Source of the DNA: a virus
DNA: 40,288 bases
IMG/VR virus record: IMGVR_UViG_3300042898_001809
Span: 1-40,288 of that record
Direction: 5' to 3' (one strand)
This document shows, piece by piece, positions 1 to 40,288 of this stretch; positions within the stretch are counted from its first letter, which is position 1; each line of letters starts with the position of its first letter. The translations under genes and the position numbers were made by a program. The notes beneath the pieces were generated by a model, which saw only the letters and a program-made list of their open reading frames with translations, searched no databases and was not told the DNA's origin.

Positions 1-123
1 GTTATTTATTAATCTAGTTTATTATTTTCTAGTTTATTATTTTCTAGTTTATTATTAATCTAGTTTATTATTTTCTAGTTATTTATTAATCTAGATTATT
101 AATTTCTAGTAATCCAGTGCTAG
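1..123. repeat. CTAG-periodic AT-rich tandem repeat
   Basis: Eight CTAG tetranucleotides occur at 14, 29, 44, 60, 75, 91, 106 and 120, so they are 14-16 bp apart. Between them lie variants of a unit resembling GTTTATTATTTTCTA or GTTATTTATTAATCTA. The last two units are degenerate. The alternating 15/16-bp spacing and frequent stop codons exclude a coding repeat. It could be an iteron-like protein-binding array, a recombination or replication site, or drifted AT-rich spacer. The left edge may continue outside the window. Confidence 0.7.
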
Positions 124-198
124 TATAGAGAAAAAATACGAAAAATAATTGATAAAATCAAGTATTTCTAATAAATAAAAATATTTTTTAAATAAGAG

Positions 199-208
199 TA
201 TATTTATA
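199..208 (+). promoter_or_regulatory. TATATTTATA box, candidate late promoter
   Basis: TATATTTATA lies 37 nt upstream of the tail tube ATG. The same T(A/C)TATTTAT(A/T) word recurs before several other tail genes in this window. The placement suits a single-box phage late promoter giving a leader of about 30 nt. No convincing upstream TTTG (-33) box is seen. The role is inferred from recurrence only. Confidence 0.4.
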
Positions 209-245
209 AGAAAGTAAATAAAAAAATTAAAACCAAAAAATACAC

Positions 246-734
246 ATGGCAGATTTATTAATGAAAATGCCGGTTCCATACGAACCGAAAAGAGTTAACC
301 GATTCATCTTGAGATTCCCTTCTTCATTAGGTATCAACGAATGGTATGTATCGGCAACGTCCAGACCAAAAGCAAAAATTACTTCAGTAGCAATACCGTT
401 CATCAATACATCAACTTATGTTGCCGGTAGATTTGAGTGGGAAGAAATGTCAGTAACGTTTAAAGACCCTATTGGTCCTTCAGCGTCACAAGCGTTAATG
501 GAATGGTTTCGTTTACATGCGGAGTCAGTAACAGGTCGTATGGGATATGCTGCTGGTTATAAAAAAGATATTGAATTAGAAATGTTGGACCCAACGGGTG
601 TTGTAGTTGAAAAATGGATTCTTCAAGGAACATTCTTAACAAACTTAAACTTTGGGGATTTAGATTACTCAAGAGATGACATTGCAACTATCCAAGCTGG
701 TTTAAGAATGGATAGATGTATCCAAGTTTACTAG
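246..734 (+). CDS. gp19: Tail tube protein, T4 gp19-like
   Basis: This 162-residue protein is almost the length of T4 gp19 (163 aa), the subunit that stacks in hexameric rings to form the inner tail tube. The sequence has the family layout: a basic N-terminal stretch ending KRVNRFILRFP, a central segment with WEEMSVTFKDPIGPSASQALMEWF, and a C-terminal half with LQGTFLTNLNFGDLDYS. The ATG at 246 follows an A-rich leader with no Shine-Dalgarno. A terminator-like hairpin about 65 nt after the stop suggests strong separate expression, as expected for a protein needed in many copies. The sheath gene would be expected just to the left, outside the window. The call rests on recognised sequence pattern, length and position. 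Confidence 0.9.
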   Translation: MADLLMKMPVPYEPKRVNRFILRFPSSLGINEWYVSATSRPKAKITSVAIPFINTSTYVAGRFEWEEMSVTFKDPIGPSASQALMEWFRLHAESVTGRMGYAAGYKKDIELEMLDPTGVVVEKWILQGTFLTNLNFGDLDYSRDDIATIQAGLRMDRCIQVY

Positions 735-800
735 TTTTATTGTTGGTATTTTATTGTATTTTACATTAAAATACACCTATCCATTTACAATATTGATAAG

Positions 801-830
801 TTCCCGTATATTTATTTATATGGGAATTTT
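801..830 (+). terminator. Rho-independent terminator-like hairpin after the tail tube gene
   Basis: The arm TTCCCGTATA (801-810) pairs with TATATGGGAA (817-826), ten pairs including one G-U, around a 6-nt loop. A T-rich tract (TTTTTATTTG) follows. It lies about 65 nt after the tail tube stop. The 3' arm also contains the ATG (820) of the zinc-finger microprotein, so the same structure could occlude that start. Confidence 0.7.
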
Positions 831-924
831 TATTTGTAAAATATGTAAAAAAGAATGTGATGGAATAAATTCATTAAGAGGTCACTCAATTCAAAAACAT
901 AATATAACCTTTACTTTTTTATAA
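820..924 (+). CDS. 34-aa C2H2 zinc-finger microprotein
   Basis: A short ORF from ATG 820 to TAA 922-924 encodes 34 residues that are nearly all one zinc finger: Cys6-x2-Cys9-x12-His22-x4-His27, with Leu19 at the usual hydrophobic position. The classical C2H2 pattern is C-x2-4-C-x12-H-x3-5-H, so the fit is exact. Such fingers bind DNA, RNA or protein, and in phages they often occur as modules in homing or HNH endonucleases. This copy stands alone and could be a remnant or a free-standing regulator. Its ATG lies in the 3' arm of the hairpin after the tail tube gene, with a TATTTAT word just upstream. It sits between the tail tube and gp26-like genes. The motif is seen directly; expression and function are not known. 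Confidence 0.6.
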   Translation: MGIFICKICKKECDGINSLRGHSIQKHNITFTFL

Positions 925-955
925 AAATTTAGTACATTAATAATAAAACAAATTT

Positions 956-1705
956 ATGGAAGAATATAGAATTGACCCCACAATCTCATATGATGTTGTG
1001 GAACTACCCTCAAGAGGTATTTTTTACCCAAATAATAAAAAATCACTCAAGGTTGCTTACTTAACCGCAGCGGATGAAAACATATTAGCAGCACCAAATC
1101 TAATTCAAACAAATTCAATTGTAACTGAATTATTGAAAAGAAAAATCTTAGATAAAGATTTTCCAATTGAAGATATGGTTGAGGAGGATAGACAAACTGT
1201 TTTAATTTTTCTTAGAAATACTGCATTTGGTTCGGAATATAGTGTTACTTTAACTGACCCAAAAACCGATTTAGATTTTAAAGCTAATGTTGATTTAAGT
1301 AGTTTAAATTTTAAACCTTTTGATTTAGTTGCAGATAGTAATGGTGAATATTCATATTTTATGGAGAAATCCAAAATTGGAATAACTTTTAAATTTTTAA
1401 CACCAAAACAAGAAACTGAAATATCGGAAATGCAAAAAAGTTGGAATGGTAATGGGTATGCACCTGTTATAACCAAACAGCTTGAAATGATGATTAAATC
1501 TGTTGAGGGTAACAAAGACTTAATGAACATTAGAAATTTTGTTGATAGATTACCGATAAAAGACGGACAAGACTTCAGAAAATACGTTACAGAACAAAGA
1601 CCAGGTATAGACCTTAAACAAACAACAAAAACCCCATCAGGAGAAGATATCCAATTTTATATTGGGTTTGGGGTTGAGTTTTTTCGCCCTTTCTACGGAC
1701 TATAA
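956..1705 (+). CDS. gp26: gp26-like baseplate hub / tail assembly protein
   Basis: This 249-residue protein matches the T4 gp26 base plate family (Pfam 'T4 bacteriophage base plate protein'). Marks are the N-terminal ELPSRGIFYPN, the LTAADENIL motif near residues 42-50, an acidic middle, and a C-terminus ending FFRPFYGL. T4 gp26 (208 aa) acts in baseplate hub assembly. By position, between tail tube and tape measure genes, it also matches the G tail-assembly chaperone of other phages. The ATG follows an A-rich leader. Codons 242-244 read TTT TTT CGC, and an alternative frame stays open for 49 more codons past this stop, so a longer frameshifted form is likely (next entry). Family call fairly sure; the chaperone role is inferred. 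Confidence 0.8.
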   Translation: MEEYRIDPTISYDVVELPSRGIFYPNNKKSLKVAYLTAADENILAAPNLIQTNSIVTELLKRKILDKDFPIEDMVEEDRQTVLIFLRNTAFGSEYSVTLTDPKTDLDFKANVDLSSLNFKPFDLVADSNGEYSYFMEKSKIGITFKFLTPKQETEISEMQKSWNGNGYAPVITKQLEMMIKSVEGNKDLMNIRNFVDRLPIKDGQDFRKYVTEQRPGIDLKQTTKTPSGEDIQFYIGFGVEFFRPFYGL

Positions 1706-1835
1706 GAAAAATCAACTTTCGGAAATTTTATTTCTTGTTAAACGAGGATTCTCTTACGGGGATATAAATTCTATGCCAATTTTTATAAGAAGGTACTATA
1801 TCGATTATATTTTGGAAATGGAAAATCAACAGTAA
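1674..1835 (+). CDS. Overlapping-frame extension of the gp26-like gene (GT/gp51-like tail piece)
   Basis: In the +1 frame relative to the gp26-like gene, reading is open from the TTTTTTCGC site (1679-1687) to TAA 1833-1835. Beyond the shift it encodes 49 residues starting ALSTDYKKNQLSEILFL and containing GFSYGDINSMPIFIRRYYID. A P-site tRNA-Phe moving from TTT (1682-1684) to TTC (1683-1685), with CGC waiting in the A site, would give a 292-aa fusion. A -2 slip gives the same frame with one extra residue. Alternatively, translation could start at TTG 1674 and give a separate 53-aa protein. The segment ends 13 nt before the tape measure ATG, like the T part of G/GT chaperones. In T4, gene 51 follows gene 26. 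The open frame and slippery site are seen; frameshifting is inferred. Confidence 0.6.
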   Translation: MSFFALSTDYKKNQLSEILFLVKRGFSYGDINSMPIFIRRYYIDYILEMENQQ

Positions 1836-1845
1836 TCTATTTATA
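1836..1845 (+). promoter_or_regulatory. TCTATTTATA box directly before the tape measure start
   Basis: TCTATTTATA ends 3 nt before ATG 1849 (ATAGGTATG). A TTTG lies at 1811-1814, 21 nt upstream of the box. As a -10-like element it would give a nearly leaderless transcript, so it may instead be a translation-initiation or processing element. It shares its core with the boxes at 199, 3772, 15087 and 25944. Confidence 0.3.
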
Positions 1846-1848
1846 GGT

Positions 1849-3756
1849 ATGGCGGATGATAAAAAATTACAACAATTAGCTAGAACCGACCCTAATGGGT
1901 TTGAAAAATATTATAGAAATAATGTTGACCGAAATGCCGATGGAGCAACCATAGCCAGTAAACAATCGTATTATAGAAATGTTGATTTATCATCAATCTC
2001 AAATACCACTAACCCTAAAGGAGGTGATGATGAGCCCTCAAAATCATTTTGGGACCAATTTAATCCTATTAAAAAAGTTGGTGAAATAGGTCAGGCCGCC
2101 TTAGAAACTCAAGAACAAAAGGGTTATATGCCAAGTTTAGAAACTGAATCCATAAAAGCGTCATCATCTTTTAAAGAGTTAATGGATAATATAGGTAATT
2201 TAAAAAATCCATTAAAAGTTGTTGAAAGTATATTAGGAGGACTTGCTGACCAAGCTGAATTATTTTTTACACAACAAACAGAATTACTCGGTGTTATTAA
2301 TAAAAATGCTGGTATAACAGGTGAATTTGCAAAAGATATCAGGGAAGAATTAACTGAAGCAAATCCCGCATTATTAAGAATAGGTATTGGTTTTGATGAT
2401 TTAGCAAAAAGTTCAGAAAATTTAGTATCAAATAGTGGTAGATTTTTAACATTAAATAGGGATTCATGGTTGGAGGCTGGAAAAGCGGCAACAGCATATG
2501 TTGGAACTTTAGGTGATTTGGTTGCGATGATGCCCCAATTTGAAAAAGTTGGTATAGGGGCCGGTAATGTTGCTGAAAACATAGATGCTGTTGGTAAAAG
2601 GTCATTAACATTAGGTTTACAATCTAAAAAAACAATAGCGGATTTAAACTCTAATTTAAGTAAATTAAATGAATATGGGTTTAAAACCGGTATTAATGGA
2701 TTATCTGAAATGGCTAGAAAGGCAACAGAATTTAGATTAACAATGGAATCGACATTTACAATTGCGGAAAAAGTTATGAACCCGGAGGGAGCAATTGACA
2801 TGGCGGCAAATTTAATGGCTATAGGTGGTGCGATTGGAGATTTAGGTGACCCATTAAAAATGATGTATATGGCGACAAACAATGTTGAGGGACTACAGGA
2901 TGCATTAATAGGAGTTGCGGGGTCATTAGCAACATACAATAAAGAACAGAGTAGATTTGAAATTACAGGTATTAACCTAAGAAAAGCGAGAGCCTTAGCA
3001 ACTGAACTTGGAGTTAGTTACGGTGAATTAGCTAATGGTGCAATTGCCGCCGCTGAAAGGTCAAGTTCCGCAAGTGCATTATTGGCTCGAGGTCTTGATA
3101 TGGATGAGGACACTAAAAGATTTATTACAAATATTGCAACAATGAAAGACGGTAAAATGTCTATTGCGTTGAATAGTGATGAATTACAAAAAATATTTGG
3201 GACTAATCAAATTGATTTAGAAAATTTAAGTCAATCAAATGTGGAACAATTAAAAAAATACCAAGATGAATTTAAAAAATTAACATCTGATGAAATTATA
3301 CAAAAACAAGCCACAAGTGTTGAAAATATAATGAGGGATGTAAACTTCTTAGCGGCTACCGCAAGATTAAAAGTTGCAAAGGAGGGTGGTGGAGCTATTG
3401 AAGCAGTAAAAAAATTCATGGGTTATAATGAAGGGGATTTGGAGAAATTATCAAAGAATCTTGCCGACGGTATAGCTGGTAATAAAGATAGTAAAGATAA
3501 TAAATCTAGTAGGAGAAAAACACCAGAACAACAAGCTTATCTTGATAGGATGAAAACAGGTGGTGCAGATAATTCAGATAAACAAAGACAATTAGAATCA
3601 AACTATGAAAATCAGAATAAAACTACCAAAGTAGAAATGACGATTATAAATAATGTCAATAAAGATAAAATGGCGACTGAACTAGAAAATTCACCGGTGT
3701 TTGTAAAAAATATTATGGACACTCTTAGTAAAGGAGAATATACAAATGTTGGATAA
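1849..3756 (+). CDS. Probable tail tape measure protein
   Basis: The 635-residue product is mostly predicted helix. It has a polar N-terminal 80 residues, a long Ala/Gly/Leu-rich middle (about 140-440) with amphipathic and hydrophobic stretches such as NLMAIGGAIGDLGDP near 318-335, and a charged Lys/Glu/Asn-rich C-terminal 130 residues. Size is close to T4 gp29 (590 aa). At roughly 1.5 angstrom per residue it would measure a tail of about 95 nm, as in T4. It lies directly downstream of the gp26/chaperone-like gene and upstream of baseplate genes, the normal place for a tape measure. No lysozyme or peptidase motif was seen. A structural hub protein is the alternative. Confidence 0.65.
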   Translation: MADDKKLQQLARTDPNGFEKYYRNNVDRNADGATIASKQSYYRNVDLSSISNTTNPKGGDDEPSKSFWDQFNPIKKVGEIGQAALETQEQKGYMPSLETESIKASSSFKELMDNIGNLKNPLKVVESILGGLADQAELFFTQQTELLGVINKNAGITGEFAKDIREELTEANPALLRIGIGFDDLAKSSENLVSNSGRFLTLNRDSWLEAGKAATAYVGTLGDLVAMMPQFEKVGIGAGNVAENIDAVGKRSLTLGLQSKKTIADLNSNLSKLNEYGFKTGINGLSEMARKATEFRLTMESTFTIAEKVMNPEGAIDMAANLMAIGGAIGDLGDPLKMMYMATNNVEGLQDALIGVAGSLATYNKEQSRFEITGINLRKARALATELGVSYGELANGAIAAAERSSSASALLARGLDMDEDTKRFITNIATMKDGKMSIALNSDELQKIFGTNQIDLENLSQSNVEQLKKYQDEFKKLTSDEIIQKQATSVENIMRDVNFLAATARLKVAKEGGGAIEAVKKFMGYNEGDLEKLSKNLADGIAGNKDSKDNKSSRRKTPEQQAYLDRMKTGGADNSDKQRQLESNYENQNKTTKVEMTIINNVNKDKMATELENSPVFVKNIMDTLSKGEYTNVG

Positions 3757-3771
3757 TAAAATTAAAAAACA

Positions 3772-3781
3772 TCTATTTATA
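3772..3781 (+). promoter_or_regulatory. TCTATTTATA box, candidate late promoter
   Basis: TCTATTTATA followed by GAGT lies 13 nt upstream of ATG 3795, in a 38-nt gap between two tail genes. It is one of the recurring T(A/C)TATTTATA words in this window. There is no obvious -33 TTTG. Confidence 0.35.
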
Positions 3782-3794
3782 GAGTAAAAGATAA

Positions 3795-6700
3795 ATGCCA
3801 ACTTATTTAGATTTTAATACCAGTAGGAATAAATCAGGAATACCTGATTCTAAGGACGGTTTTAGGGATTACTTAATCGCTAGAACTCTTAATGTACCTA
3901 ATGGTCCTCAAACCTTTACAAGTACAAATTATTCAGTTCAAACACTAAGGGAAATGCCGAACATTGACCCGGGTGATGTTGTGGTTAACAACACAATAAA
4001 TCCAGGTGAAGGAACTAGTAGAGCTTTACAATTAACATCTTTTTCAAACAGTAATATTTTTAAACCTTCACAGTATTTCATTGAAGAAAATTTAAATGTT
4101 TTACCAAGAAGAGCAAACTTAGGATTATATCCTTATTTCTTAAAGTCAGATTATAGTTTAATTGGTATTATGTCAAATTCAGATTATAATAATGAATCTG
4201 AATTAATGAAATTTGCCGCGAGTAATATTAGAGATAATAAACAAGGACCCGTTTTAGCAAGAATCACACAAAATTTAGAATCTTCTACAGTTGGTAGAGT
4301 TAGAGTTATTGATGCGTTACAAGGTAACACCGCAACTGCGTTAAATTTAATAACAGGTAGAGAACCTTTAGTAGAATATAATAACAGAATAACAGTATCT
4401 TCAAATTTATTAGGTAAAGGTATTGATTTTTTACAAACAGTAGCAGGAACTCAATTACCATTTAGTGAGATACCGGGAGATTATTTATCAAATCCAAGAA
4501 ATCCGATTACAAATAGACCTGAATCTAAAACTCAATCCGGTGCAATTTTACAAGACGTAACTGGTGCTATAGGTTCATTAGTCGGTATACAAAGAAGACC
4601 AAAAATCACAAGAAAACCTTCAGATTTATTTATTGAATATATGGGTCAAGGACCAAAACAGGTTCTATTTAACCAATTAACATATTCAAAATATGCTCCA
4701 AATTATACAACAACCGCAAGGTCACAACAATCATCAAAATCATTTCAATTTGTAGACAATATAGGACAAGGTATTAAATCTTTAGTAGGATTAGAAGCGC
4801 CCGCCGGTAAATCGTATATGGGTGATGATAGAAGTAACGATGTTAAAAATACAATGTCCGACTTTAATGACAATGTCGTTAAAAGTAGTTACTATCTAAG
4901 TTTAATGTTTGACCCAATTGCGGCTTCTTTATTTGAAAGAAAAAGAAACATATCTGAAAATGGTAGTATTGGAAGTAATTTAACATGGATTAGTAAGAAC
5001 TCTAAAAGTAAATTAGGTCAATCTACAATAAAAATTCCAGTTGAAGGTGGTGTTAAAAACCCAATGGGATTTTATGAAAAAGAAACTAACACATACAAAA
5101 GAAATGAAGATATGGGTTCTCTTCAAGAATCCTTATCCACAAAATACGGATTTAGACCCGATTCAATCTTAGATAAAACACAACAACTTTTGGATTCAAT
5201 GCCAAAGGATGGAGCCGCATCACGTACGCATGTAGGTAATGTTATTGACCAAACAAGTAGAATATTTAGGGAAGGAGATACGGTGATGTCAAGAGGTTCT
5301 AATATCAAGTATACCGATAAATTTTCGGGAGAAGAGACGGGAGTTGAATACTGTAGAGTATGGACAAAAGATAGAGCATATATGAACCTTTCGGACACCA
5401 TGAAAAGAACGGGAGTTATCCGTAAATTTGATGATAGTGTCATGGGTGGTGGAAGTAAACCGTGGAATTTGAATATTGCTCCAATGTCGGACGGAAATAA
5501 AAATTTTGAAGGAACTTCAACAAATATAATTAAACAAGGAGATGGATTCTACGCTAAAAAATATATGTTCTCAATTGAGAATTTAGCTTGGAAAACATCA
5601 AATACACCAGGATTCACCTACAACGACTTACCATATTGTGAAAGAGGTAACAACGGTGGTAGGGTTATGTGGTTTCCTCCATATGATTTAAAAATTAGTG
5701 AGAACAATAGTGCAAGATGGGCAGATAATACTTTTTTAGGTAGACCCGAACCAATTTATACATATCAAGATACAAGTAGAACAGGACAGTTGTCTTTTAA
5801 AGTTGTTGTTGACCATCCTAGTATTTTAAACTTATTGGTTAGAGAGCACTTTGAAAATATGAGTGATGATGAAGCTGAAAATTATATTAATGCTTTTTTT
5901 GCTGGATGTCAAGAACTTGATTTTTATGCATTAATTAGAAAATACGCACATTTGGATGCTGATGATATATCGTTAATTAGGGCGTTTTTAAATAACAATA
6001 AAGAGCCTGACATGATATTAGAATATATGCCAGCGGTCGAAAGTCCTGTTAATGTAGACCCAAATAACGGTAGTGGTAGTGGTTCGGGAGATAATGGTGG
6101 AGAGGGCGGTACGGAAAACATTGTATTAAAATTTGCAAATGATATACCAGGTTCAAAACTTAAATTGGAATCATCTGGTAAGTATTCTGATTTATACCAA
6201 TCATATATCCCTTTAGGTTCGACTAATTATCAAAATACACTTGTTACCCTTCTACATTCAATGACGGGTAAAACCGATACTCAAATTATTAAAGAAACAG
6301 AATATATTTTTGGTTCAAAAAAAACAAATGGAGCAACACCACCTGTGGTATCATTTACCGATGATGATGTAACCACCCAAAAAGATAAATTGGCAAAAGG
6401 GTTCACGGACGCTCAAACAGATTACGAAAAATTTATTAAAACATTAAATGAAATAAAAACTAATTTAAGTGGTAAGACCGCTCAAGACATAACAATTAAA
6501 ATTGAATCATCATGTTCATCGGCCGATACTGATGATTATAATGCAAAACTTTCACTAAGAAGAAGTCATAGTATAATACAAGATGTATTTGATAAAATCA
6601 AAGCTCCAGGTTCTAATCCCACTATACAATGGATTAATGATATTAAACCAACTGATAAAGATAATTCAGATAATGATAAAGTTATAATACCCGAATTGAG

Positions 6701-39281: not shown

Positions 39282-40288
39282 ATGGCAATAATAAAGATTA
39301 ATACTGGAAATTATGGTGGAGAAACAGCAATAATCACCTTCTATCCTTGTTCAGGCGGAACCATTAATATTGGTACGGTTGTGATGCCATATTATTATGA
39401 AACCGATTATTATCTGGGAACATATTCAGTTTATTTTACAAATTTAGATAAAACTTGTTATTCTGAGGTTGCATGTATAGGACCATCACCAACCCCTACA
39501 ACTACACCAACCGTTACACCTACACACACGGTGACCCCATCTTTTACTCCAACTGTTACACCAACAAATACTTTAACACCCACTCTTACGCCAACTAGCA
39601 CCTTAACGCCAACTAATACGTTAACGCCAACTGTAACGCCAACCAATACCATTACACCGGGAGTATCCTCATCATCAACTCCAACTATTACTCCAACAAA
39701 TACAATTACTCCAACCAATACATTAACACCTACTAACACTATAACACCAACGGTAACCCCCACCAACACGTTGACACCAACTAATACCTTAACTCCCACG
39801 AATACAATTACACCTACTAATACTTTAACTCCAACCAATACTGTTACACCGACAAACACTCTAACTCCAACTCAAACTATTACACCAACAAATACATTAA
39901 CACCAACTGTCACAGAAACACCCACATTGACACCGACTGTCACACTATCACCTACTGTTACCCCAACCAGTGCCCTTACACCAACCAATACTGTTACCCC
40001 AACCAATACCGTTACACCTACCATCACACCAACAAATACAGTAACACCTACAAATACCGTTACTCCAACTAACACGATAACCCCAACAAATACTTTAACG
40101 CCAACTAACACCCTTACACCAACAAATACTATTACACCAACACTAACTCCAACTAATACCGTAACTCCAACAAATACTTTAACCCCCACTAATACTATTA
40201 CTCCAACCAACACTCTTACTCCCACATTAACTCCAACTAACACCCTAACCCCAACAAACACGGTAACTCCAACAAATACCGTAACACC
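39282..40288 (+). CDS. Thr-Pro repeat fibre/adhesin-like protein, partial (right end missing)
   Basis: ATG 39282 (leader TTAAAATTAA) opens a frame that stays open to the window edge, 335 codons. The first 66 residues form a small beta-like head with three Cys ([17 protein letters not shown]), starting [20 protein letters not shown]. From about residue 67 the rest is a Thr-Pro repeat of six-residue units TPTNT(L/I/V), with variants TPTVTP, TPTLTP and one interruption (PGVSSSSTP). Synonymous codons vary strongly between units, so the repeat is kept at protein level. Such Thr/Pro sequences form extended, stiff stalks. By position after baseplate genes it is likely a fibre, whisker or decoration protein. 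The end is not visible, and there is no signal peptide. Confidence 0.8.
39483..40288 (+). repeat. 18-bp protein-coding tandem repeat (TPTNTx)
   Basis: About 45 six-codon units of ACN CCN ACN AAY ACN (CTN/ATN/GTN) type and variants run in frame to the window edge. Thr and Pro third positions change freely while the amino acids stay. The opposite strand is accidentally open over most of this stretch. Confidence 0.9.

Follow-up and report, generated by a model that had tools for sequence, protein, structure and literature searches.

Among the described homing endonucleases, I-Bth0305I is intron-borne and SegF of phage T4 is a GIY-YIG enzyme. Excerpts of PMC2988022 describe T4 mobE and segF as free-standing genes whose coding regions contain, at the 5′ end, an intrinsic terminator that limits read-through, and a title cited there presents mobE as an HNH endonuclease; the same excerpts report that in I-TevI, segB and Aeh1 mobE the region where translation starts is masked by a stable stem. 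In the excerpted text of PMC3943268, the EDxHD enzymes are one of at least six homing endonuclease families described, with members that are extended, multi-domain proteins. Among the titles listed in literature searches, none concerned a nuclease of the present family behind a tail tube gene or an EDxHD nuclease with its start codon inside a terminator stem, which is no proof of absence.

The DNA analysed here, hereafter the window, comprises 40,288 bases of an IMG/VR virus record with T4-like tail genes. A gene for a T4 gp19-like tail tube protein (246–734, + strand; PHROG 4542 tail tube, E = 1.6e-23; Pfam Phage_T4_gp19, E = 1.5e-5, below cut-off) is followed on the same strand by a T4_baseplate-like gene encoding a baseplate hub-like protein (956–1705; Pfam PF12322, E = 3.4e-7; PHROG 150), and between the two lies a C2H2 micro-ORF of 34 codons (820–924, + strand), which starts at ATG 820, stops at TAA 922–924 and encodes MGIFICKICKKECDGINSLRGHSIQKHNITFTFL. 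We consider it highly probable that this micro-ORF is what remains, as a decaying 5′ stub, of a free-standing homing endonuclease gene that stands between the tail tube and baseplate genes of these T4-like phages, because its homology covers codons 1–30 of such a gene, intact copies occupy the same site elsewhere, all the rest of the gene is lost, and the junction falls inside the native terminator. Elsewhere in the window, AT-rich direct repeats of the TCTAGTTTATTATT type lie 5′ of the tail tube gene (1–120), and a long ORF of TPTNTLTPT-type repeats (39282–40286) runs off the window end.

Residues C6, C9, H22 and H27 of the micro-ORF form an exact C-x2-C-x12-H-x4-H finger, in keeping with the C2H2 form C-x2-C-x12-H-x3-5-H, so the 34-aa ORF and finger of the preliminary description are reproduced at 820–924. 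A six-frame search of the window turned up this pattern a single time, whereas dinucleotide-Markov random sequence is expected to give 0.07 occurrences, which argues that the finger did not arise by chance. The match to Pfam zf-C2H2_4 (E = 0.006, 17.6 bits) is below the curated cut-off of 27 and thus unconvincing by itself, so that proof of the identity of the micro-ORF rests on homologous loci; searches of Pfam, PHROG, NCBIfam and PDB sequences with the 34-aa ORF by itself gave weak matches or none. Matches of the ORF to T-even ‘endonuclease’ sequences by tblastn, at E = 0.7, were discarded as evidence. Two TTG codons of this frame, one at 793 and one at 754 that opens a longer frame, are alternative candidates, making ATG 820 the best but not the sole possible start.

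A scan of viral contigs with the frame around the ORF yielded 37 loci, in 33 of which the frame continues into a nuclease ORF, the other 4 being remnants like the window. Full length (295–302 aa) is reached by 28 of these 33 ORFs, while the remaining five are broken or stop at a contig end. The tail tube gene lies upstream of the nuclease in all 33 loci, and the same holds for all 48 additional loci that were examined after a second scan (best 80 of 94), placing a homing endonuclease of ~300 aa between the tail tube and baseplate genes of many uncultured phages. Because the same contigs recur across scans as different loci (e.g. L118/L121 and L083/L073/L206), locus counts exceed the number of independent phages. 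When the window was compared by tblastn with five intact nucleases, alignments covered codons 1 to 29 or 30 only, at 62–90% identity and E values down to 1.5e-13 (codons 1–29 correspond to window 820–906, + strand), and a search for the rest of the nuclease, including the nuclease domain, found no other match better than E = 0.097. The suggestion in the preliminary description of a trimmed homing-endonuclease finger is thereby borne out, as the ORF corresponds to the opening ~30 codons of a full nuclease that related phages carry at this position. A chance ORF with a coincidental finger pattern, which the weak Pfam score might have allowed, is already refuted by this identity at the same locus and by the low expected number of finger patterns, and its probability is negligible.

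The intact proteins consist of an N-terminal C2H2 finger, a CxCxC cluster, a basic helical part or linker, and a C-terminal nuclease domain. All 34 distinct intact fingers have the four zinc ligands C6, C9, H22 and H27, and E190, D216, H234 and D255, which may be the catalytic residues of the EDxHD motif, are invariant in all 16 proteins of alignment A1, drawn from the 28 full-length copies. The proteins match the homing endonuclease family PHROG 9084 (E down to 3.8e-9) as well as phrog_559 and phrog_3339 (phage HNH/homing endonucleases), mostly in the C-terminal half, with phrog_559 spanning more; Pfam DUF559 matches weakly, above cut-off in one of four proteins scanned. The predicted structure of an intact protein has a mean pLDDT of 65, with values by blocks of ten of 76–94 for residues 161–230, 48 for 231–240 and 64–91 for 241–295. 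For the predicted nuclease domain, the best Foldseek match was the catalytic domain of I-Bth0305I (3r3p_B; E = 1.5e-4, Z = 12.3, rmsd 3.4 over 95 residues), followed by 3hrl and Vsr (1cw0_A, Z = 11.3), which suggests that the intact relatives adopt a Vsr-like nuclease fold of the I-Bth0305I/EDxHD type. PDB sequence searches with the intact nuclease found no nuclease. A search with the intact nuclease of L118 returned only two Bacillus phages and one Microcystis phage, with ~30% identity over 60% and 33% of the length; the tube-hub stretch matched no cultured phage in a search at the DNA level, and no confirmed relative was found among the genome contigs searched.

Several loci carry further variations around the nuclease. 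L160 (3470), L170 (3404) and L176 (3441) have a second gene of ~530 aa after the nuclease, which presumably resembles another nuclease, as though homing genes accumulated behind the tail tube gene. In L195 (2501–3343), the nuclease finger and middle part are fused to a different C-terminus without a nuclease domain, carrying two repeats that we take to resemble NUMOD1. In L196 (2501–2872) and L197, the nuclease is independently cut short after codon 123, near the baseplate gene; L196 retains the hairpin described below, and L197 begins downstream of the hairpin position. Between the intact nuclease and the baseplate gene, L090 (4633–4749) and L113 (4446–4571) contain an ORF of 39–42 aa with a C-x2-C-x13-H pattern and a Lys-rich tail, the two being 67% identical to each other, and we regard this ORF as a better candidate than the window ORF for a genuine free finger-like microprotein.

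The break itself can be read by comparison with L118, where the native terminator AAAAGGTCTCTCAAAAGGAGACCTTTACTTTTTT directly follows the intact gene and is in turn followed by the baseplate gene. In the window, nuclease codon ~30 joins straight onto ACCTTTACTTTTTT, the last part of that terminator. The nuclease body has therefore been lost along with the native terminator's 5′ arm, and it is terminator sequence that encodes TFTFL, the final residues of the micro-ORF. The native sequence past the break (907–955, + strand) consists of the terminator's 3′ remainder ACCTTTACTTTTTT and a promoter-like leader of the baseplate gene, and the same block is found in element-free relatives and 3′ of the intact gene in L118. 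When the junction was searched for as a 21-base pattern, 8 stretches matched, 4 of them the known remnants and 4 unrelated. In the aligned relatives as in the window, the leader has CTTTACTTT (or CTTGACTTT), a motif that is possibly a promoter; CTTTACTTT occurs once in the window.

The closest relatives of the baseplate gene were fetched as the best 80 of 210 loci, 77 of which also have the tail tube gene. In 76 of these 77 loci the gap between the tube and hub genes is 97–135 bp, versus 221 bp in the window; only L073, which shares the finger ORF, departs from this range, at 220 bp. No finger was found in the 18 shorter intergenic regions that were aligned. These element-free regions hold other terminator-like hairpins (e.g. 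AAAGGTCTCTC..GGAGACCTTTACTTTTTT), then the baseplate-gene leader, and four such sites folded at −15.0 to −21.9 kcal/mol over stretches of 76–95 nt. For site-specific cleavage of element-free alleles, a putative activity of the intact enzyme, what is shown is this occupied/empty pattern at one site. Relative to the window, L073 has a tail tube protein and a stub that are identical (100% for the tail tube protein) and a baseplate protein that is only 71% identical; the comparison of window 1–955 with L073/L206 suggests that a recombination boundary coincides with the stub's 3′ edge.

We infer that either an internal deletion or incomplete copying during homing left the hairpin and the finger in place, without the native terminator's 5′ arm. 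In the second case, the stub would be an incomplete insertion, through abortive homing or partial gene conversion of the 5′ end, rather than a deletion product, a variant of the stub reading to which we assign a minor share of the probability. The final sequence would be identical for both histories, and the window-like loci L002–L009, with ~91–92% baseplate-protein identity, are without the element; the absence of the native terminator's 5′ arm, however, fits a simple deletion out of a complete gene such as that of L118, while still being compatible with partial copying.

Whichever history applies to the nuclease stub, its subsequent fate can be followed in the four other remnants of the collection, namely L082, L083 (the contig of L073 and L206), L084 (L203) and L085. 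The first three are nearly identical to the window across the stub, with the four zinc ligands intact. The intact finger ORF of the window, L082, L083/L206 and L084/L203 speaks against decay of the stub, but the near identity of their DNA implies roughly one lineage of intact-finger remnants. L085 shares the junction of the window, but its ATG is changed to ACG and its Cys9 to Tyr, its C-terminus is different and its stop is not at the same place; it keeps the hairpin, the tail tube gene and the baseplate gene, and 1,825 bases surrounding the site resemble those of the window. The functional finger of the preliminary description, for which loss of Cys or His residues beside retained flanking genes is the refuting observation named there, is thus contradicted by L085, and a stand-alone microprotein serving as a regulator or chaperone partner is at odds with the junction in the native terminator and with C-terminal residues that are junction sequence.

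The nuclease stub might instead have been kept as a small DNA-binding protein that guards the homing site against intact relatives or acts as an I-TevI-like repressor. The intact ligands of the window, L082, L083 and L084 speak for such a role, as does the role in autorepression that excerpts of PMC2988022 ascribe to the finger of I-TevI. Against it stand the L085 changes in the start codon and Cys9, the Gly at residue 21 in the remnants where the intact rows of A1 have S or V, the C-terminal residues, which derive from the junction and differ in L085, and the start codon buried in a stem, and we consider retention of this kind very improbable. Both the window and L085 retain, 5′ of the hairpin, an in-frame TTG from which translation could in principle start. 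Outside the hairpin, the window and L085 differ by 3 nonsynonymous changes and 1 synonymous change, too few for a selection test, and intact pairs with 3–9 differences give a pN/pS of 0.32 over 20 pairs, a comparison too small to decide. Most likely, the finger peptide does nothing.

The start codon of the stub lies within a terminator-like hairpin that was brought by the element (798–829, + strand) and contains ATG 820–822 in its 3′ arm, as the preliminary description had placed it. The stem has 13 pairs, 3 of them G-C, with a loop of 6, a TTT at the stem end and a T-rich tail, TTATTTGTAA; having G-C pairs and a U run, although G-C-poor, it qualifies as a candidate intrinsic terminator. The minimum-energy fold of a 52-nt piece has −15.7 kcal/mol and pairs all three ATG bases. 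Across relatives, folding of 37 distinct 5′ regions representing 78 loci predicted full pairing of the start codon in 36 (the ACG of L085 counted as paired), the exception being the intact relative L176, in which the hairpin is absent and the leader is A-rich and unstructured. This count left out eight divergent relatives, L186–L192 and L199, which were folded separately and have the hairpin just 5′ of the ATG, not over it. By comparison, of the start codons of 21 other genes in the window, only 2 show full pairing. Covariation in 28 of the 37 regions shows pairing in 99.4% of cells, with 4 of 11 pairs changed on both sides, and sliding the partners destroys the signal. The overlap of hairpin and start codon thus appears from sequence comparison to be a conserved property of the intact nuclease gene.

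In an intact gene, most tail tube transcripts would stop at the hairpin, and on transcripts that read through, the same stem would hide the AUG. We propose that stopping at the hairpin together with the hidden AUG results in little nuclease being made. In the window, the hairpin is the only terminator-like site found on the + strand of positions 1–4000, with apparently no other terminator remaining behind the tail tube gene, and it probably now ends the tail tube transcript, which we propose is why it persists. In L085, the ATG-to-ACG change converts a G-U pair of the stem to G-C, so the hairpin outlives the start codon. Taken together, one hairpin may serve both as the terminator of the upstream structural gene and as a lock on the nuclease start, ribosome start and polymerase termination being mutually exclusive, and the window lineage may have lost the nuclease and kept the hairpin as its own tail-tube terminator. 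The L085 change fits this arrangement, since it destroys the start but gives the stem a G-C pair, and we put the arrangement forward tentatively, at somewhat less than even probability. If true, a control part of a selfish element has been taken over by its host phage.

A convincing phage ‘microprotein’ can thus be the stub of a selfish gene, and comparative loci settle such cases fast. The intact family amounts to a naturally replicated test, with dozens of phages bearing occupied, empty or decayed alleles at one site, and could show how homing endonucleases spare essential neighbours and whether a selfish terminator becomes the host's own; what most deserves following is the conserved terminator-like hairpin enclosing a start codon, which apparently outlasts the loss of the gene.

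Among known systems, I-Bth0305I and the EDxHD family are the best match for the predicted nuclease domain, and both I-Bth0305I and the intact gene are phage elements with a modular DNA-binding part. Unlike I-Bth0305I, however, the intact gene is free-standing behind the tail tube gene, and the window copy is without any nuclease domain. T4 mobE/segF and I-TevI are close precedents for the control region. As in T4 mobE and segF, a terminator or terminator-like hairpin lies at the 5′ end of the nuclease coding region, but the nuclease family is another one, the site is between tail tube and baseplate genes, and the start codon itself is inside the stem. As in I-TevI, segB and Aeh1 mobE, a predicted stem sequesters the translation start of a homing endonuclease; in the T4 case, according to excerpts of PMC2988022, a late promoter gives stem-free transcripts, whereas here the stem is also terminator-like. 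The family's own feature is therefore the start codon itself lying within a terminator-like stem.
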